Program-made: the position numbers and the translations under genes
Assembly: GCA_029856155.1 (NCBI GenBank)
Contig: JAHQWL010000075.1
Location: 1 to 64,000, forward strand
DNA length: 64,000 bases
DNA from: Promethearchaeia archaeon
Lineage (GTDB): Archaea > Asgardarchaeota > Lokiarchaeia > Sigyniarchaeales > SOKP01
Reading direction: 5' to 3'
The notes under the pieces: model-generated
What the model was told of the DNA's origin: nothing
The model's input: only the letters and a program-made list of their open reading frames with translations
Database searches by the model: none
In this document: in pieces, positions 39,249-49,359 of the stretch
Position numbering within the stretch: position 1 is the first letter of the stretch
Layout of the letters: the number at the start of each line of letters is the position of its first letter

Positions 39249-40895
39249 TTATTCATCCCTAAAGAATTGTAATAAATCGTTTAAATTAGTAAATTTAGAA
39301 TAGTTTGAATGAAATTTAGAATTTAAAAGAGGTTCTAATCCATGAATTGGATTAACAGGGTTAAATTTTTCAACTTCATTAAATTGATTTAAATAGCTCT
39401 CGGGAATTAATACTCCACATTTATGATACTTATTATAATTTTGATTAATATAAGCGCTTGACTTCTTAACTGAGTTCTTATAAAGTTCATCATCCTCTTC
39501 GGAGACCGTTATAGATTCAAATTGTCCCATCGGATATGTACTTATTAATTCAAGTGGAATTATTCCAAAATAGAAAGAATTAAACACAATATGTATGTCT
39601 TTAACAGCGATTATTGTATTATCATTTATCTCTTTAAGCCAATTTTGGATTGTTGGAGAATTTTCTCCTCTAGCATCTAATTCTGGTAATATTATTAAAA
39701 ACTTTACATCTTCTGGAACCCGATAGTTGATATTAATCCTCTTCTCATATCTGGTAATCAAAGGTCTGTAAATATCTTCAGTAGAAACAAACATTCTCCC
39801 ATGCTTCTTATACACTTTTTCATAGAGTTCAAACACAGGAGATTTTTTCTTTAAGATCCGTACTGCTTTGATTAAATTAGGGTGTGCTCTTACACGTTGA
39901 TCAACAAGTTCCCACAAATTCCCCTCTCTTATTGCTTGTCTAATTGTTTTTAGCTCAGAAAAAGAAAGATACAAGTTATGTTCTGCTAAGAGTTTAATTC
40001 GCAAATTATCTTCGAATTTCCTCAGTTCATTTGGTTTAAATTTTGTACAAATTGGGCAATGGCATGGAAATTCTTCTAAATCCTCAAGATTTTTTGTACC
40101 TGTGGATAAGGTAAAATACCTATTCTCTTTAGCATATAAGATATATGCTGCAGAATCCATTAAATCGCAACCACATGCGACAGCTAAGGAAAAAAACTGT
40201 GGTAGACCTAACCCAAACATGTGTAATGGTTTATTTGAGTTTATATTTTTTTTCACATTCAACAAAATTTGAATAGCTCTATCAAATCTGTAATCAAGAA
40301 AAGATTTTACCAATCCCCCAATCGCATAAACATCAAAATCCAGTTTATTCATTTCATTAATACATTTTGTCAAAAGATCATCATATTTACCTCCATGAAT
40401 CGGCCCAAACCATGCACAATTTTCATTGAATCGTCTTTTAACGTTATCTCTTGCTCTATCGATTGTTGCATCAACTTTTTTTTTTGCTATTTCATATGCA
40501 TCATCAGGTTGTACAGGAAGATCAAGGATCACAGGAAAATCTGATTCAATCTTTTCTTGAAATCCTTCAATTTCTTCAGCTTCAATCTTCATATCAGACT
40601 TGTTATACATATACTGTTGAAATGCTCCGCTATCGGTTGCGATAAGACCATCAAAATCAAGAAATTGGTGAATCTTTTTCTTCATGAGGCTTTCTTTTAT
40701 AGTTTCATTTTGAAAAAGGATATAAGCATTCGTAAAAACAGCTTGAGCACCAAAGCTTTTTAAATCAGAAGGTTGAATAACATTTTTAAAAGGATGTACT
40801 ACAGGAAAAAGATTAGGGGTAATCATCTGCTTATTGTTGACTTCTAATTTTCCTATTCTGCCTAAAGCATCTACATCTAGAATTTCATACTTCAT
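39249..40895 (-). CDS. tgtA: Archaeosine tRNA-guanine transglycosylase
   Basis: The protein has 548 residues. The TGT barrel shows LIATDSGAFQQY, DLPVQPDD, GPIHGGKYDDL and AIGGLVKSF, plus the zinc site CHCPIC (~275-280) with the downstream His in AEHN. Length and the C-terminal extension fit the archaeal TgtA type, which swaps guanine for preQ0 at position 15 of tRNA on the way to archaeosine. It is cotranscribed with DUF371 and Trm5, and AK6/Fap7 lies 27 nt upstream. Confidence 0.95.
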   Translation of the reverse strand: MKYEILDVDALGRIGKLEVNNKQMITPNLFPVVHPFKNVIQPSDLKSFGAQAVFTNAYILFQNETIKESLMKKKIHQFLDFDGLIATDSGAFQQYMYNKSDMKIEAEEIEGFQEKIESDFPVILDLPVQPDDAYEIAKKKVDATIDRARDNVKRRFNENCAWFGPIHGGKYDDLLTKCINEMNKLDFDVYAIGGLVKSFLDYRFDRAIQILLNVKKNINSNKPLHMFGLGLPQFFSLAVACGCDLMDSAAYILYAKENRYFTLSTGTKNLEDLEEFPCHCPICTKFKPNELRKFEDNLRIKLLAEHNLYLSFSELKTIRQAIREGNLWELVDQRVRAHPNLIKAVRILKKKSPVFELYEKVYKKHGRMFVSTEDIYRPLITRYEKRININYRVPEDVKFLIILPELDARGENSPTIQNWLKEINDNTIIAVKDIHIVFNSFYFGIIPLELISTYPMGQFESITVSEEDDELYKNSVKKSSAYINQNYNKYHKCGVLIPESYLNQFNEVEKFNPVNPIHGLEPLLNSKFHSNYSKFTNLNDLLQFFRDE

Positions 40896-40922: not shown

Positions 40923-41516
40923 TTAATCAAAAAATTCATTTAAACGATCCTCTTTAAATAACTTTTCAAGCCAATCAACTTTTCCAATCTTAAAATTTTC
41001 TCCGTTATTATTTTCAAATATAATTTCAACGATAATTTGCGCTACAGCTTCAATATTAGTATTTGTCGTGTCGATTTCATATATGGGTGCTTTTATCCGC
41101 TTTTGAATAAAATAATTGGCACAATTACCTAGAATTTCTGCTTGAATGTTTTCATTAATTTTTTCTCTATCGAAATTTTTTATTTCTAATCTTCTGAATA
41201 ATTCATCCGGATCACATCTTAAAATAAATACATAATCAATAAATCTTTCGGGAATAATATCTGAGAAATGGCTTTCTATTATCAGGTATGGTGGATTCTC
41301 TTGTTTAATATCTTCAATCTTATCTAAAATATAAGGTAGAAATATTTCAAAATCTACGATATATGTTTTTCTTTCTTCATCATATTCAAATGAAAATTCA
41401 TCCGAAATTGCTAATTCATTTAAAGACATTATTTTAGCTTTAATTAAATTAGAAATTTCTTTTGCTACCGAAGTTTTTCCGCAGCCAGGTGTTCCGGAGA
41501 TAACGATATTTTTCAT
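40923..41516 (-). CDS. AK6/Fap7-type adenylate kinase (ribosome assembly)
   Basis: The 197 residues begin with the P-loop GTPGCGKTS (~8-16). The AK6 phrases IIESHFSDIIPE and FILRCDPDELFRRLEIKNFD follow, then KINENIQAEILGNCANYF. Fap7/AK6 acts late in small-subunit maturation, binding uS11 and hydrolysing ATP. The C-terminal ~25 residues form a short helical tail. It leads the minus-strand operon of tRNA-modification genes. Confidence 0.92.
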   Translation of the reverse strand: MKNIVISGTPGCGKTSVAKEISNLIKAKIMSLNELAISDEFSFEYDEERKTYIVDFEIFLPYILDKIEDIKQENPPYLIIESHFSDIIPERFIDYVFILRCDPDELFRRLEIKNFDREKINENIQAEILGNCANYFIQKRIKAPIYEIDTTNTNIEAVAQIIVEIIFENNNGENFKIGKVDWLEKLFKEDRLNEFFD

Positions 41517-41874: not shown

Positions 41875-42324
41875 CTAATGTTCAAGGAAATCTCTGAAAC
41901 TATGATATACACAGACAATATATTCACATTTGGGGCATTCGTACCAATCTTTATATCTCTCATTTGATTTTATTAGTAATGGGATTTGACAAGAGGGACA
42001 TTTTATAGGTTGTTCTTTATGATTTATTATATGCTTTTTATAATCCTCTTCTAGCTCACATTCAAGATCTTCTTTTAATATATATGAATCTGTTTTTGCT
42101 ATAAAATCTAATATTTCTTGGTTCGGATACCATTCATTATGATGTCTGTATTTTCTAAATCTTTTATGTAAATCATATTCTCCTCTACTATTGCCTTCAA
42201 TAATCTTTAGTATTCTCAATTTGTCTGCATTGAAGCTCTTTAAAATACTACATCTATCTTTTGGATTAGTAGAAAAACCAATCTTTATCAATCCTGTTTT
42301 TTTAGCTTGAATAAAATACAACAT
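41875..42324 (-). CDS. GIY-YIG (T5orf172/MUG113-like) protein with zinc ribbon
   Basis: The 149-residue protein opens MLYFIQAKKTGLIKIGFS, with a downstream Arg (R24) and EYDLHKRFRKYRHHNEWY, the T5orf172-type GIY-YIG nuclease pattern common in phages. Residues ~109-133 form a zinc ribbon (KCPSC...ECPKC). This pairing suggests a DNA-binding nuclease. It stands in a region with other mobile-looking genes (tRNA-Ile, PD-(D/E)XK-like protein). Whether it is active or domesticated cannot be told. Confidence 0.75.
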   Translation of the reverse strand: MLYFIQAKKTGLIKIGFSTNPKDRCSILKSFNADKLRILKIIEGNSRGEYDLHKRFRKYRHHNEWYPNQEILDFIAKTDSYILKEDLECELEEDYKKHIINHKEQPIKCPSCQIPLLIKSNERYKDWYECPKCEYIVCVYHSFRDFLEH

Positions 42325-42938: not shown

Positions 42939-43055
42939 TGGGAAAGGGGGGCTTCGAACCCCCGACCTCACGGTTATCAGCCGTGCGCTATACCAGGCTA
43001 AGCCACTGAAGAGATACTTCTAACACAAGAATCCACTCTCCCAAGCTGCTTTCCC
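42939..43055 (-). tRNA. tRNA-Ile (GAT) with a ~43-nt intron next to the acceptor stem
   Basis: On the minus strand the acceptor GGGAAAG (43055-43049) pairs perfectly with CTTTCCC. The anticodon arm CACGG-CTGATAA-CCGTG carries GAT. The T arm GGGGG-TTCGAAG-CCCCC is perfect and CCA is not encoded. Between the acceptor stem and the D arm (TG-GCTTAGCCTGGTATAGC) sits an insert of about 43 nt (43006-43048). Removing it gives a normal 74-nt tRNA. The insert pairs internally (GGAGAG with CTCTTC; TTCT with AGAA). An intron around position 7/8 is non-canonical and would need the relaxed archaeal splicing endonuclease. Confidence 0.9.
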
Positions 43056-43199
43056 TTTAAAGATTAATTATAAAAGTTTTAATTCTTTATTATTAAAAGT
43101 TGTAATGGTTATTATCAATGTACAATTTGTTGAATAATTTATATAATATATAGCTAAAAAATTTTTTGACAATTTGAAAAAGATAAATTTCCCTTAAAT

Positions 43200-44648
43200 T
43201 TACAAAAAGTCGTCTAAAGAACCCTTGATTCGATACGATTCACCATCTCCTAAAGGATCAAACCTAACATAGGGATCATATTTCATTTGAACATCATAAA
43301 GGCCAAATACATCTTTAACCTGTTCATTGAATTGTAGAACAATTTCCTGTATTACTCGTTTTTGATTTTTCAATAACATTTTTCGATTAAAACCGTCCTT
43401 TTCTTTCAAGCGTATTAGAATTATCTTTTTTCTATAAGAAACCTCATTTTTAATAGAGTCTCTCGCGTTTATTGAGGCAAAATCCTCCATACTATCGCAA
43501 AAAGGATTTTTTTTAATATTTATCTCATCATGATAAAAACCATCATATTCTCCAGCTATCGCAAATTTATAATTGATTCCGTCATTCCCTATAACATAAA
43601 CATTAGGACAAAAATGATCATATCTTAATTGGCCAACAAAAACAGGAATAGGATATTTAACTCCATTTATTCGTATTGTTCGGATAATGACCTTCTCTCT
43701 ATCAATTCCACAAGCCTGTTCTAACCTTACTTGAACTTTGAATTCTTTTTTAAAAAACTGCTCTAAATAAGTCCTCATCATTCTTTCACAGATCAACTCA
43801 TTACAATATGGGCACCAATTATAATCATATATTATTTTTCTCACTTGAATCGAGAATTCATGTCCTACTCCGCATGATATTTTTATATACCTATCAGTAG
43901 GATATTCAGTCATTAATTCATAAACAGTTCTCGAAGTCAGAATACGTGCTTTTCCATGACTTCGATACTGAATGAAGTCTTTAATATTCTCATATTCAAT
44001 TCTTTTTCGTATAGCACACGTTTTGCCCCATACTTCATCGTAAATCGCGCGTGATTCACCAGGATTATAGCATTTCACTTGAACAAGATATTCTATTACC
44101 CATGGTTTAAATGTATTTTTACTGATTATCCCATGCAAATCACCTTTTAGTAAATTATTCCTTGTTGGAATCAAAGATATGCTCTTAGGATATAATCTAA
44201 TATATTTTTCAATTATTTCATAAAACCTAATTTTTTCTTTTTTTTTAGCTGAATTTTCTGGCCAAAATAATTTTATAACATCTTCTACTGCTTCTTTCCC
44301 ATATAATATTTCTAACCAAGTTGAAATGTAAGCTCTAAGTGTTGGTCTTGAAATTCCTAAGCGATCTGAAATCGTTCGTAATGATCCAAATCTGTCATCA
44401 TATATAATGTCTTTAAAACAATTTATTGGGTCATTTCCTAATAAATCTATTACATAATTTCTAATTTTTTGTTTATCTATTTCACTGAGATTTGAACAAC
44501 TAGGTTTTAAACCTAAATTTATGTTGTTAGTACGAAAAAAATTCGAATTATTCGGGTCGTAATAATTAAAATGGCGACCTTTGGAGTTATTTAATCCACA
44601 ATAATTTTCACCATTAATATGATTCCTTTTGTTATTTTCTTTTTTCAT
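43200..44648 (-). CDS. HTH / zinc-finger / PD-(D/E)XK-like nuclease protein
   Basis: The protein has 482 residues. Around 85-115 is a helix-turn-helix (FGSLRTISDRLGISRPTLRA). At ~258-285 is a zinc finger (CGVGHEFSIQVRK...CPYC). This is followed by ICERMMRTYLEQFF, then GEYDGFYHDE (~367) and NARDSIKNEVSYRKKIILIR (~395-415). The order zinc finger - LEqff - EYDGxxH - rDxiKn - iiLIRl is that of VSR-like/phage-type restriction endonuclease folds. It is therefore a probable DNA nuclease with its own DNA-binding domain, possibly from a mobile element. No partner methylase is near. Confidence 0.65.
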   Translation of the reverse strand: MKKENNKRNHINGENYCGLNNSKGRHFNYYDPNNSNFFRTNNINLGLKPSCSNLSEIDKQKIRNYVIDLLGNDPINCFKDIIYDDRFGSLRTISDRLGISRPTLRAYISTWLEILYGKEAVEDVIKLFWPENSAKKKEKIRFYEIIEKYIRLYPKSISLIPTRNNLLKGDLHGIISKNTFKPWVIEYLVQVKCYNPGESRAIYDEVWGKTCAIRKRIEYENIKDFIQYRSHGKARILTSRTVYELMTEYPTDRYIKISCGVGHEFSIQVRKIIYDYNWCPYCNELICERMMRTYLEQFFKKEFKVQVRLEQACGIDREKVIIRTIRINGVKYPIPVFVGQLRYDHFCPNVYVIGNDGINYKFAIAGEYDGFYHDEINIKKNPFCDSMEDFASINARDSIKNEVSYRKKIILIRLKEKDGFNRKMLLKNQKRVIQEIVLQFNEQVKDVFGLYDVQMKYDPYVRFDPLGDGESYRIKGSLDDFL

Positions 44649-45022: not shown

Positions 45023-48000
45023 CTAGGATTCTAAAATTCGTTCATTTTCTACTTTTTCTTTGAAAATAAGTTCGGGATACAAAAATTCAAAAGTTTTACT
45101 AAACAATTTATGGTTCATCCACATTTCATTTTTTGTGTTCCATATTAAATTTTTTAAGGGATTATATTTTTCAAGAAAATTTTTATTTCCGTAGACCGAT
45201 TTGATAATAGAGTCACCATTAACCAAATCAGTTAATATCAAATATTTTTCAATCCTTAAGTACTGAAAAATATATTCAAAAATTCTTAAAAATTCAGCAA
45301 TTTCGCAATCTGGAAGATATAATTTGATCATTAGTCCACTATATATCTTTTTCTTCTTACTAAAGCCGTGAATATAATACTCTCCTTCAATTTCGTAAAT
45401 AAAACCTAAATTGAAATACTGAAATATGTATTTTAGTATATCAATTGTATCTTTTTTTAGATTTAGCAAAATAATATGGATAATTTCATTCAATCCCAAA
45501 TTTTTTGGAGTAATAATGGGAAAGATAATTTTCTTCTTGATTAAAGTTTGAATCTCATCGAAGATAGATTGGTTAATAATATTATAATTTTTCTTAATAT
45601 CAACAGAATGCCAATTATATATATGCAATAAAGCTTTAAAATAGGGAGAATTAGGTTTATAATAATCTGAAATTATTAAATCACCAGTATCAAAATGTTT
45701 CACGTCTGAAGTTTGAACTCTATAATTTGGATTGAAAAGAATATTTTGTATATAAGTATTAAAATTATTAGAATCTAAGTACCATCCATTTGAGCTTAAA
45801 TTATAGTTGAAATGGAAAATTTGAGAAACAGATTTAATAGTAAATAGGCAATATTCTCTTATTTTGTTTTTACTTCTCAACCAGTTAAGGTATGAAGTAT
45901 TGGGTTTATTGTAAGGAAATAGATATTTAATAAATATGGAATTAGAACTATCAATTGATGCCATATGCTTAATTTTTTGAAAAGTATTTGTAAATAATAT
46001 TTTGAAATCTACATCTTCTACATCAAAAGGAGTAATATATAAAAAGTATTGTCCTAATCCAAAATTTTGGAAAGCAGGAAGTAGTTTTATTGATTTTATA
46101 TATTGTCTAAAGAAATTTTCTTTTTTTATTATTTGAAATTCTCCTTTGTTCATAAAATGTTTTTCAAGATTTAAGTGAAAATGTATTAATTTTTGAATAT
46201 CTATTGGATTAAAACTGATACATTCAGATCTAATTCTTTTGTTGATTTTCTTAATAAGATTTGCCAGATTTTCTTTTATAGACCAATGTTTAATCGTACT
46301 AACTGATTTTTCTTTAAATTGGTTTAACTCTTCGCCACAAATATTTTTAGTGTAAAGAAAAAATTGCTCAAATAGATCTTTGGTGAAGAAAAACTCTTTC
46401 TTATTGAAATCATAAAAATCTTTTCTTGAAAAAGTATGTAAAAAACCGTCCCATGAATATCGTTTAAAAGATATAATATTTTCTTTAAAAATCTTAGATA
46501 TTACTGAAATTAATGTTATCTTTTCGTTATTATTCAAATATGGAATAAAAAGTTGTAAAAAAATAAATTCTTGGTTACTGAATAAATCTATTGTTTCATA
46601 GAAATAACTTTTAGGAAAATAATTTTTTATTTTATTTATTGTAGCTCTTACTTCAGGGGAATTTTTTAGTATTATTTGAGGAAAATAGCTTGCGACTGAA
46701 TTTGTCCATATAGTAGCAATTAAGTAGGGTTTAATTATCTTAGGATCTTTATTGATAAATTCATCTATCTTGAGATTAATTGTCTTATTTGATACATTAT
46801 AAGTTTTATTTTTTTTTTTTAATTCTCTTAATCGTGCTTTTTTTAATTTAGTAATCTTATTTGATAAGTTTGGATCATTGATTATTTTTTTAATTGATTT
46901 AATACTAAAAATTTTTAAATTAGAACATAACTTTAAAAATTCGTAAAAAATTCGGAGTTTTTCAACATCTTTAGCATATTTGGCTCTAGAATTCAAATAA
47001 TTCAGGAAGAGATTTTTAAAAGTAAAGGAATTTGAATCTATATGGTCAAATATATTACTTTCTTCAATTGATTGTATTATATTCTCTTTTTCAACAAATT
47101 CTTTAAATTGAATAAAATTATTCATTCTGTTTGTATCTTTCGATTCTTTTTCAATTATTTTGAAATAATTTACCCATTTTTTTAATTCATCTTTAATATA
47201 GAAAAATCCGAAATTTTGATTTCTTTCTAAAAAAATTACGAAATCCTTTCGGAGTTCAGGAGAATCAATTAGTATTTTCAAACTATTCTCTAATTCTTCA
47301 ATTAAACTATTTTCACCTATGAAAAAATTAGAATGATCAGATTTTATTATGTTTGAAATTTCCCTTTTTCTTGAAAAGTTTATTCCAACAAAAGAAAAAA
47401 ATCTTATTCTCTCTAAAATTAAAAAATCCAGAAGTGTTAGATTAGGTTTATTAAAGTCTTTATTATAATTTTGTATGAATTCGATTTCAAAGTCTTTTGA
47501 GTAGTTTTTATTATTAAGTTCTATTATCTGCCCATTTTTATAAGATTCTCTAAAATAATTTAAATTCAACGAAAAAACATACTTCTTTGCTAAAGAACAA
47601 TGTTTCTTAATTATGTATCCATATTTCTCCATTTCTTTCAACATATAAATCAAATCTTTAATATAAATTCTTGGAATAACAAAATATGCCGATAATTCTA
47701 CTGCAAAATTAGTTATCGAAAGTTTTGGCATAATTAGAAATGGCATTTGGTTAGTAATCTTGTCAATTTTAGCTTTTTCTAGTAGAGGATTGAATTGCAA
47801 ATGGCATGTAATAATAGCTATATTAATTGCTTTCCAATCAAAATAGTATGATGGGGTTATATAGCTATATTTATTAATCCATCGAAGGTTTTTTCTAAAA
47901 CTCCGTGAACTCAAATCAGTTTGGATGATTCCCTGTTTTTTAAAATTATTAAAGTAATTATAAAATCCTTCCAAAGTATCACAGTTTTTTATTTTGTAGA

Positions 48001-48685
48001 AAATTTTAGTTAAAATTCTAAGAGTTTCTGTAATCTCATTACTCTGTAAATTCTTTGAAGATTTGAACATAAAATCTTCATACATTTTATTAAAGTAAAA
48101 TTGTAGATTCTCATCGAAATCTAGGTTTGAATTTTGCCTGATGTATTCAAAAAAGAATTGTTTTGGACTTTCGGAATCTTTTGTTTCTTTTAATTCAAGG
48201 AATTTGTCAAAACGGAATTTATCTGATTGATTCGATAGAAAATTGTAATTCAAAAATCTTTCTCTTATGAAAAGTCCCCATTCTGTAACCGAGGTGAATT
48301 CTTTTAAATCAATTTCTACAAATTGGTTAATAGCAAAATCAATGAGATTTTTTTCTTTTAGATTATTCGGGATAAAAGTAAGATAAGCACTTTGAAGTAA
48401 TAGAAAGGGGAAGAACTTTCTATAATTTTTAAAAAGTTTAATATGATATATATCATCTCTTATAGATCTATTCACTCCGTAACTATGTAATCTTTTATCT
48501 GAATCTCTGTTCTCATTTATTTCATCAACAACATGTATTTTTACTTTTTTGTTGATTACATCTAAATTTAAATAAGCTTTTAACTCATTCATTAGATAAA
48601 TGAAAATCTGATTTATCTTAATAGGATCATCCATATTAGATAATTTTTTCAACTTATCTAAATTAGGAGAGTTAACCAAATTCAT
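45023..48685 (-). CDS. Giant conserved protein of unknown function, paralogue 2
   Basis: The ATG at 48685 gives 1,220 residues. It is a full-length paralogue of the 33.8-37.5 kb protein: the shared blocks run in the same order from the N-terminus (HSYGVNRSI..., FPFLLLQSAYLTFIPN) to the C-terminus (EIEGEYYIHGF, YLILTDLVNGDSIIKSVYGN, MWMNHKLF). No transmembrane, signal or NTPase motif is visible. The region ~600-660 is basic and helical (KIIKKIINDPNLSNKITKLK-like). It faces its paralogue. An inverted repeat AAAGGA-AC-TCCTTT (48750-48763) lies upstream, and a divergent micropeptide gene begins 279 bp away. Confidence 0.85.
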   Translation of the reverse strand: MNLVNSPNLDKLKKLSNMDDPIKINQIFIYLMNELKAYLNLDVINKKVKIHVVDEINENRDSDKRLHSYGVNRSIRDDIYHIKLFKNYRKFFPFLLLQSAYLTFIPNNLKEKNLIDFAINQFVEIDLKEFTSVTEWGLFIRERFLNYNFLSNQSDKFRFDKFLELKETKDSESPKQFFFEYIRQNSNLDFDENLQFYFNKMYEDFMFKSSKNLQSNEITETLRILTKIFYKIKNCDTLEGFYNYFNNFKKQGIIQTDLSSRSFRKNLRWINKYSYITPSYYFDWKAINIAIITCHLQFNPLLEKAKIDKITNQMPFLIMPKLSITNFAVELSAYFVIPRIYIKDLIYMLKEMEKYGYIIKKHCSLAKKYVFSLNLNYFRESYKNGQIIELNNKNYSKDFEIEFIQNYNKDFNKPNLTLLDFLILERIRFFSFVGINFSRKREISNIIKSDHSNFFIGENSLIEELENSLKILIDSPELRKDFVIFLERNQNFGFFYIKDELKKWVNYFKIIEKESKDTNRMNNFIQFKEFVEKENIIQSIEESNIFDHIDSNSFTFKNLFLNYLNSRAKYAKDVEKLRIFYEFLKLCSNLKIFSIKSIKKIINDPNLSNKITKLKKARLRELKKKNKTYNVSNKTINLKIDEFINKDPKIIKPYLIATIWTNSVASYFPQIILKNSPEVRATINKIKNYFPKSYFYETIDLFSNQEFIFLQLFIPYLNNNEKITLISVISKIFKENIISFKRYSWDGFLHTFSRKDFYDFNKKEFFFTKDLFEQFFLYTKNICGEELNQFKEKSVSTIKHWSIKENLANLIKKINKRIRSECISFNPIDIQKLIHFHLNLEKHFMNKGEFQIIKKENFFRQYIKSIKLLPAFQNFGLGQYFLYITPFDVEDVDFKILFTNTFQKIKHMASIDSSNSIFIKYLFPYNKPNTSYLNWLRSKNKIREYCLFTIKSVSQIFHFNYNLSSNGWYLDSNNFNTYIQNILFNPNYRVQTSDVKHFDTGDLIISDYYKPNSPYFKALLHIYNWHSVDIKKNYNIINQSIFDEIQTLIKKKIIFPIITPKNLGLNEIIHIILLNLKKDTIDILKYIFQYFNLGFIYEIEGEYYIHGFSKKKKIYSGLMIKLYLPDCEIAEFLRIFEYIFQYLRIEKYLILTDLVNGDSIIKSVYGNKNFLEKYNPLKNLIWNTKNEMWMNHKLFSKTFEFLYPELIFKEKVENERILES

Positions 48686-48963
48686 CAATTTAATATATAA
48701 TTTTTGTCTTGAATCTAATATGCTGCAATTTACTTTTTAAAATTTTTCAAAGGAACTCCTTTTGTATCAAATATAATATTCCTTTATAAAGAAAAAATTG
48801 AAATAAAAATAATTCTACATAAGGATTTTATAAATATTTTTGATTCACTATAAGTGCAATTTAACCTAATTTTTATCGAAAATTAGAAAATTCTTTCTGT
48901 TTAAATAGAAGAATATAGAAGAAATGACATCAATTCATTTCATTTAATAAAAAGGTAATTAAT

Positions 48964-49077: not shown

Positions 49078-49359
49078 TACAAAAAGCCCATTAATCAAAT
49101 AAAGAATATTTCAAATTTTTTTTACATTTATTTCTCTGATACCTGGATTTTTTATATTAAATTTATGAAATTGAAGCAATTTTTATTAAATTCTGGACTA
49201 ATTTAAAATAGATTTAGATATTTAGATTTAGAATTAACACTATTTAATGGTTGTTAGGAATAAATGTAATAAATAGTATTTAAAAAATTTTTTGACCAAA
49301 AAAATAATAAAATATGCTTATTTTTAATTAATATTATACAGTAGATGTGTTGAGATAAA

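Follow-up and report, generated by a model that had tools for sequence, protein, structure and literature searches.

How can a tRNA be spliced when its first exon comprises only seven nucleotides, and how might an interruption at such a place have arisen? These questions are raised by a tRNA-Ile(GAT) gene on the minus strand (43055-42939) of the window, by which we mean the whole 64,000-nucleotide stretch of DNA that was analysed. The assembly holding the window is archaeal, AT-rich and 4.1 Mb in size, and Rfam locates an archaeal 16S fragment at the window start. A first-pass annotation, made from the sequence alone, had described the gene as interrupted between the acceptor stem and the D arm, and this arrangement is indeed present. 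Rfam reports a partial tRNA only (42945-43007, minus strand, 44.7 bits, model positions 6-65), and ARAGORN does not detect the gene, which indicates that tRNA annotation in archaea of this kind is probably incomplete. The annotation had also considered that another complete tRNA-Ile(GAT) might exist elsewhere. None was found in the assembly, which is 97.25% complete by its record, when a pattern search was combined with a DNA search (a pattern search alone could miss a GAT gene with an intron inside the searched pattern).

Read 5ˊ to 3ˊ on the minus strand, the locus consists of GGGAAAG (43055-43049), CAGCTT, GGGAGAG (43042-43036), 30 nt, and then TGGCTTAGCC...CTTTCCCA (43005-42939), which includes the anticodon GAT. 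Two acceptor 5ˊ strands are present, not one. The annotation had judged both acceptor strands to be perfect, with approximately 43 nt following position 7. GGGAAAG does pair 7/7 with CTTTCCC, and 43 nt do separate it from U8, but the second strand had been missed and the likely intron is only 30 nt in length. GGGAGAG also pairs at all seven positions with the 3ˊ acceptor strand, with one G.U pair. The features of the gene and its conserved neighbours are as follows.

43155..43169, minus strand: A/T block TCAAAAAATTTTTTA, a probable promoter element now serving the tRNA gene
43049..43055, minus strand: outer copy of the acceptor strand, GGGAAAG, in the leader
43043..43048, minus strand: spacer CAGCTT, whose GCTT is shared by 13 of 14 genes (CAGT in L031) and could pair with D-stem nucleotides
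43036..43042, minus strand: likely exon 1, tRNA nucleotides 1-7, GGGAGAG
43006..43035, minus strand: 30-nt intron at position 7/8
42939..43005, minus strand: exon 2, tRNA nucleotides 8-73, matched by Rfam, with the anticodon GAT inside the loop at 42974-42980
40923..41516, minus strand: AK6-like kinase (kinase family matches), the conserved downstream neighbour
39249..40895, minus strand: tgtA, encoding tRNA guanosine(15) transglycosylase (family matches), the next conserved neighbour

Between the tRNA and the kinase gene is a 149-aa ORF (41875-42324, minus strand) with T5orf172/MUG113 (GIY-YIG-like) matches; of the other loci compared, only L016/L191 has it.

The compared set comprises 40 tRNA-Ile genes, 14 with the 7/8 interruption and 26 without it. 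The 35 named genomes that share the tRNA are labelled Candidatus Lokiarchaeota or Lokiarchaeia, and 13 of their 35 loci carry the intron. Because the order of tRNA-Ile, AK6-like kinase and tgtA is widely kept (the kinase at 31 of the 35), intron-bearing and intronless genes are mostly orthologs. The presence of the intron is patchy on a tree of AK6 and TgtA, which is a locus tree rather than a species tree and includes 29 of 36 rows, the rest being too short or without a match. The V-type ATPase subunit A was dropped as a species marker, since two paralogs occur in most genomes, including that of the window (C13 and C46) and most relatives searched. In 25 relatives without a full match, the pattern search found no tRNA-Ile(GAT), and four of these, from genus g7, have a gene interrupted within the anticodon (by eye; one ends at a contig edge). 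A kinase search in 20 of the 25 yielded four full-length matches. By eye, tRNA-Ile(GAT) is broken within or next to the anticodon loop, and not at 7/8, in L069, L071 and L072 (g7) and in L036 and L077 (g5).

Comparison of the 14 interrupted genes indicates that the gene very likely carries a 30-nt bulge-helix-bulge (BHB) intron at position 7/8, the splicing of which we infer from the fit of the motif. Exon nucleotides 2-5 can pair with intron nucleotides -6 to -3 to form a central helix in 55 of 56 cells, the inner helix is paired in 99 of 112 cells, and the bulges read AG^N and A[A/G/T]^U. The gene thus has the central element of archaeal BHB introns, a helix of about 4 bp flanked by two 3-nt bulges that contain the splice sites. 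The proposed junction is the best of nine slides, with a slide of -1 giving 54/56 and 58/112 and the others giving less in the central helix; the fit is lost once the junction is moved by 1-4 nt. When the intron was shuffled base by base, the observed pairing was reached in 0-36 of 20,000 cases per gene. The arrangement is thus more than chance, given that 14 relatives share it, shuffles rarely match it and slides lose the fit. One central-helix mismatch occurs in L020. In L031, which belongs to a different genus, the intron is unrelated and 32 nt long; its geometry is the same and its central helix is altered (CGAG:CUCG). The fold check of the borders that had been proposed at the outset accordingly favours 7/8 in all 14 genes, with a 5ˊ border that does not lie at GGGAAAG.

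The inner strand is taken as the exon because it is common to the uninterrupted genes and because a junction there forms the archaeal splicing motif. Uninterrupted genes of genera g1 and g2 read GGGAGAG-TG-GCTTAG, and those of other genera read GCGAGAG and similar. Of the 14 intron genes, 12 have GGGAGAG as the inner strand, and two have GCGAGAG together with the matching change in the 3ˊ strand. The outer helix, formed by the leader with nucleotides 9-12, is paired in 52 of 56 cells. Two leader-side nucleotides are left unpaired in this helix and only one of its four pairs can form in L031, and thus the splicing motif is a relaxed one. Taken as a whole, the precursor does not stand out in its fold, which 11 of 200 shuffled sequences equal, and the central helix has mean pair probabilities of 0.20-0.98, with values of only 0.20-0.54 in at least six of the 14 genes. 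Both exons lie in order within 104 nt, which distinguishes the gene from split or permuted tRNAs.

The origin of the intron was examined at loci with filled and empty alleles. In the closest pair, L178 (filled) and L172 (empty), 2221 nt replaces 76 nt between flanks that are 93.9-95.1% identical upstream and 98.8% identical over 164 nt downstream, where homology starts at U8 within 2 nt. The same border is found in L168/L177 (2.5 kb more), in L170/L176 (about 6 kb more) and in L164/L167, which are 93.4% identical over 1840 nt from U8 and share no homology in the 5 kb examined upstream. In these comparisons the promoter, leader, exon strand and intron are not orthologous to the empty alleles, and the DNA from U8 on matches. 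Because these genomes hardly differ in tRNA positions 8-73, the border at U8 restates the position of the intron, and the new information is that the leader and promoter are, judging from their sequences, not orthologous. The borders and the upstream non-orthology together suggest that a cassette supplies the promoter, leader, nucleotides 1-7 and intron. Further upstream on the minus strand of the window are the following features.

43200..44648, minus strand: orf482, a predicted PD-(D/E)XK/Vsr-like nuclease (motif and fold) and proposed homing endonuclease
45023..48688, minus strand: orf1221, unassigned, between two promoter blocks, with relatives also near some intronless tRNA-Ile genes
49258..49309, minus strand: probable stranded original promoter and leader start, with 90.4% identity across 52 nt to the leader of L171, which has no intron, and 6.25 kb from U8

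The last of these includes the same 15-nt promoter block as that now serving the tRNA gene, at 49281-49295 and 6.1 kb upstream, and the original promoter block of the gene therefore seems, from this match, to survive there. The layout of L193 is compatible with a deletion from one promoter block to the other that left the intron and leader copy in place. The right end of L178 (genus g2) is 93% identical to that of L194 (genus g1) over 252 nt, and the kinase and TgtA proteins of g1 and g2 are mostly about 50% and 60% identical to those of the window. Presence and absence at one locus is thus accompanied by co-transfer of flanks (L178/L172, L168/L177, L170/L176 and the g1-g2 right ends), as is characteristic of homing. 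Elements of the pNOB8/SSV type combine an integrase or recombinase gene with tRNA-derived direct repeats at both ends. Neither orf482 nor orf1221 has an integrase or recombinase family match, and no acceptor fragment was seen by eye at the left junctions of four loci. From these borders, we consider it probable that the intron has spread as a cassette.

An endonuclease-like gene or its remnant is located upstream in six intron loci, since orf482 homologs lie directly upstream of five of the other 13 intron genes (one is an 88-codon remnant). None was found at any of the 22 named loci without the intron, among which the upstream sequence covered reaches at least 2 kb in 18. A search of 65 family genomes yielded 21 matches in 15 genomes, including 15 matches at E<=2e-20, of which 14, in related genomes, are located no more than 1.5 kb from a tRNA gene. 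The neighbouring tRNAs are those for Ile (six, the window included), Ser/Val (two), Lys (two), Gln, Leu and Val, plus one with several interruptions, the identities of the Val and multiply interrupted neighbours being read by eye. In the Ser/Val pair the ORF is 3ˊ of tRNA-Ser, and thus the link of orf482 is to tRNA genes and not always to their 5ˊ end. In the exception, L201, a relative (1453-2694) is flanked on each side, by eye, by a copy of the same protein-gene 3ˊ end, a layout that looks as if the element had brought a replacement gene end. No tRNA was seen near the six weaker matches. A chance estimate for the tRNA linkage, which assumes 46 tRNA genes and 3.6 Mb and counts related genomes as independent, is given no weight here. 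At L204 and L206, a tRNA-Lys gene whose 5ˊ half contains additional sequence lies on one side of the orf482-like ORF and a degraded second tRNA-Lys-like 3ˊ half lies on the other (by eye).

The orf482 protein belongs to no Pfam or NCBIfam family. Its relatives share the conserved motifs GxLRxD, EYDGxxHD and ARDxxKN. In a fold comparison, the whole domain gave middling matches to I-Bth0305I (3r3p; Z 7.4, 97 residues aligned, rmsd 3.5) and to 3hrl (Z 6.8). The domain model alone matched RAP (Z 8.1), 3hrl (6.8), TnsA (5.6) and also Bax1, with I-Bth0305I not among the rows, and Foldseek returned no significant match with orf482 against the PDB. A PHROG homing-endonuclease family is matched by three of 14 relatives and not by the protein of the window; single relatives match two endonuclease families, and the protein of the window matches none. 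No relative was found in viral contigs. Together, the motifs and fold matches point to a PD-(D/E)XK/Vsr-like nuclease, with an activity that is predicted.

Homing would be the likeliest driver of the cassette, and spread by orf482 cleavage is marginally favoured. A competing explanation that retains considerable weight, while being the less probable one, accepts the intron and leader copy as real and makes orf482 a passenger, or ascribes the spread to an integrase-like element or another route such as homologous recombination between alleles. It gains from the eight of 14 intron loci that lack orf482, from left borders that are variable and lie inside homologous promoter DNA, and from a nuclease assignment derived from motifs and a middling fold match. 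The linkage of the orf482 family to tRNA genes (14/15) argues for an active role instead, as does the finding that the closest relatives of orf482 occur only at intron-bearing tRNA-Ile genes and at none of the 22 named loci without the intron.

The outer acceptor strand is a regular companion of the intron. A leader 7-mer able to pair with the 3ˊ acceptor strand is present in all 14 intron genes (7/7 in 12, 6/7 in two) and starts 13 nt upstream of exon 1 (14 in L019). Within 60 nt upstream of the 26 genes without the intron there is no 7/7 7-mer; a 6/7 7-mer occurs in three of them (L061, L066, L069), at this offset in L069 only. For this test, intron class was assigned from the sequence between the acceptor strand and U8 rather than from the leader, the leaders having been seen beforehand. 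Loci that repeat a gene already included (L042-L048, L058, L063-L065), seven distant relatives (L034, L035, L037-L041), fragments (L070, L073) and L077, which resembles L036, were excluded, as were genomes to which no locus had been assigned. The contrast of 14 with 0 does not represent 14 independent events, since relatedness and, in part, a common cassette link the genes, and a Fisher figure for this contrast likewise takes no account of relatedness. In the same genome, 17 other tRNA genes were inspected, and a second pairing copy within approximately 200 nt was seen in none. An A/T block (at least three A followed by at least four T) is located no more than 150 nt upstream of exon 1 in all 40 tRNA-Ile genes and is perhaps a promoter, in which case the leader would be transcribed with the outer copy included. 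By eye, a C-rich triplet is located about 5 nt before the G-rich acceptor strand in uninterrupted g1 genes (L021, L022, L023, L024, L026) and could form a small hairpin with that strand.

Is the leader copy in use? We regard a function as moderately likely. The opposing account, in which the intron is as proposed and the copy is a role-less relic of a tandem duplication at insertion, is a rather unlikely one. It draws on the resemblance of GGGAAAG CA GCTT to nucleotides 1-13 (GGGAGAG TG GCTT) and on the fact that some of the 14 genes have one cassette by descent or transfer and are thus not independent. However, the pairing of the outer copy with the 3ˊ strand is held in 96 of 98 cells despite five substitutions, which appear as G.U pairs at positions 4-6, with two mismatches in all. 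GCG-type copies in L020 and L031 match their own stems, and the copy is retained in solo alleles without the endonuclease gene. It also recurs in tRNA-Ser at another spacing: in L217, L218 and L219, tRNA-Ser(GCU) has an intron at 6/7, and a leader copy, GCTCGGG, pairs 7/7 with CCTGAGC in all three (L219 by eye). No 7/7 leader copy was found in 25 other tRNA-Ser genes of the family, two loci being unreadable. Splicing of the tRNA-Ser intron is less sure because the central helix of its motif is poor by eye.

A different choice of exon would reverse the roles of the two strands. If exon 1 were the outer GGGAAAG, then a 43-nt intron that includes GGGAGAG would be removed to leave the junction GGGAAAGUGGCUUAG, and this we consider improbable. 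The outer strand does pair perfectly with the 3ˊ strand, with no G.U, and the energy model favours it both before splicing and, in 13 of 14 genes, afterwards. However, a border there forms no splicing motif (central helix 43/56, inner helix 46/112 cells), and the outer strand is more variable than the inner one, which matches the intronless genes, and is mismatched (U.U) to the 3ˊ strand in L019 and L051. The outer strand was thus rejected as the exon on motif fit and variation. Since GGGAAAG pairs worse with the intron and is more variable, it is a leader copy, and the intron is most likely 30 nt and not about 43 nt. A 13/14 intron that removes a second copy of nucleotides 1-13 was also considered and rejected, because a U at position 8 comes after the outer copy in only three of 14 genes (L018, L052, L031). 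That the gene is a dead pseudogene or an assembly artefact is hardly credible, since standard finders do miss or truncate it, but the arrangement is common to 14 separate assemblies, the gene is the sole GAT gene found in its genome, and the tRNA body and exon strand are conserved.

With the 30-nt intron and the leader copy as the preferred reading, the following course of events can be proposed. A mobile cassette would capture the tRNA-Ile(GAT) gene at position 7/8 and provide it with a promoter, a leader, nucleotides 1-7 in a new copy (GGGAGAG) and the 30-nt intron. The endonuclease-like orf482, which lies just upstream in the window, would be part of that cassette. While held by the intron, exon 1 would be unable to form the acceptor stem. 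The leader strand GGGAAAG might stand in opposite CUUUCCC, such that the precursor stays cloverleaf-like and the short 5ˊ exon is tethered to the 3ˊ exon until ligation. Cuts at 7/8 and ligation would yield a normal 74-nt tRNA-Ile with the junction GGGAGAGUGGCUUAG, after which exon 1 would displace the spare strand and RNase P would take off the leader. Folding of the precursors is consistent with the stand-in role, as the outer copy and 3ˊ strand have mean pair probabilities of 0.41-0.99 and the inner pairing is near 0 in 13 of 14 genes. In the energy model, pairing of the outer copy persists after splicing in 13 of 14 genes, and thus the presumed strand exchange needs tertiary structure or enzymes that are outside the model. 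Taken in its main lines, with intron, cassette and a leader copy in use, this account is one that we favour with reasonable confidence.

The splicing endonuclease of the organism is compatible with this proposal. Two PF01974 paralogs are present in the genome, on contigs C13 and C52, and they fit a heteromeric enzyme by sequence. One retains the histidine seen in the alignment and has the Aeropyrum chains 3p1z_B and 3ajv_B as its closest matches; the other has serine at that position and most resembles 1a79_A, from Methanocaldococcus. The nearest precedent for the presumed DNA-cleaving partner is I-Bth0305I, a free-standing homing endonuclease of the EDxHD type. The orf482 system resembles this type in its predicted nuclease fold, motif pattern, conserved adjacent target and horizontal spread. 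It differs in that the family is unnamed in Pfam and NCBIfam and is tied to protein-spliced tRNA introns rather than to group I introns.

Heteromeric splicing endonucleases are tied to non-canonical introns in PMC4033280 and PMC4090602, and such an enzyme is likely here as well. The window intron resembles the non-canonical archaeal BHB introns described there in being short, with a central helix that joins the 5ˊ exon and the intron, as in the canonical BHB (PMC4090602), and with two 3-nt bulges. Acceptor-side positions are rare in these reviews, in agreement with the original impression that an intron at this place is unusual. The list in PMC4090602 gives positions 20/21, 22/23, 25/26, 29/30, 30/31, 45/46, 53/54, 56/57, 59/60, 'etc.' and 3/4. 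The intron would thus count as a BHB intron whose outer helix is relaxed and whose position is outside that list, and it differs from the listed introns in its leader copy of the acceptor strand and its link to an endonuclease-like gene. Many tRNA introns at non-canonical positions are already known in Asgard archaea (PMC11291895), and 7/8 introns may already be tabulated, for example in its intron table.

By analogy, the gain of the intron is like that proposed for tRNA-Thr(GGU) of Caldiarchaeum (PMC3293823), where an integrating element brought an intron, the enzyme gene is adjacent, the native 5ˊ part was moved upstream, and empty and filled alleles were compared. That case involves a putative recombinase and position 24/25, and a 5ˊ tRNA fragment is kept. 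Here, in contrast, the enzyme is predicted to be PD-(D/E)XK/Vsr-like, the position is 7/8, the native acceptor strand is lost and the promoter would be supplied by the cassette. In split tRNAs of Nanoarchaeum and others, complementary flanks hold two pieces together for splicing (PMC3218864). The tether proposed here resembles these flanks, although it would lie within one transcript and copies the exon strand itself. Neither a leader copy of the acceptor strand nor a tRNA-linked endonuclease cassette in Asgard archaea is described in the titles and abstract openings of the openly licensed papers searched.

As a tentative generalization, to which we give a somewhat less than even chance, Lokiarchaeia might harbour a family of tRNA-capturing homing cassettes. 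Each would combine an endonuclease with a replacement end of the target tRNA and a short protein-spliced intron, which would at once restore the tRNA and disrupt the target of the enzyme. Where the intron is in or next to the acceptor 5ˊ strand, a surrogate acceptor strand in the leader would scaffold splicing. The origin of archaeal tRNA introns is a debated question with few cases, and such cassettes, if real, would represent a direct and repeatable route of intron gain in relatives of eukaryotes. Cassette-borne gain is directly testable because a single locus offers empty, filled and apparently solo alleles, the last having lost the element and kept the intron. With its leader copy, the gene would offer a new solution to the problem of splicing a 7-nt exon that is half of an acceptor stem. 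Extra sequence in the D-arm region or elsewhere was also seen by eye in other tRNA genes of the same genome (L076, L140, L143, L150, L153, L160), including a tRNA-Arg-like gene (L140) in which a 9-nt direct repeat is located at the borders.
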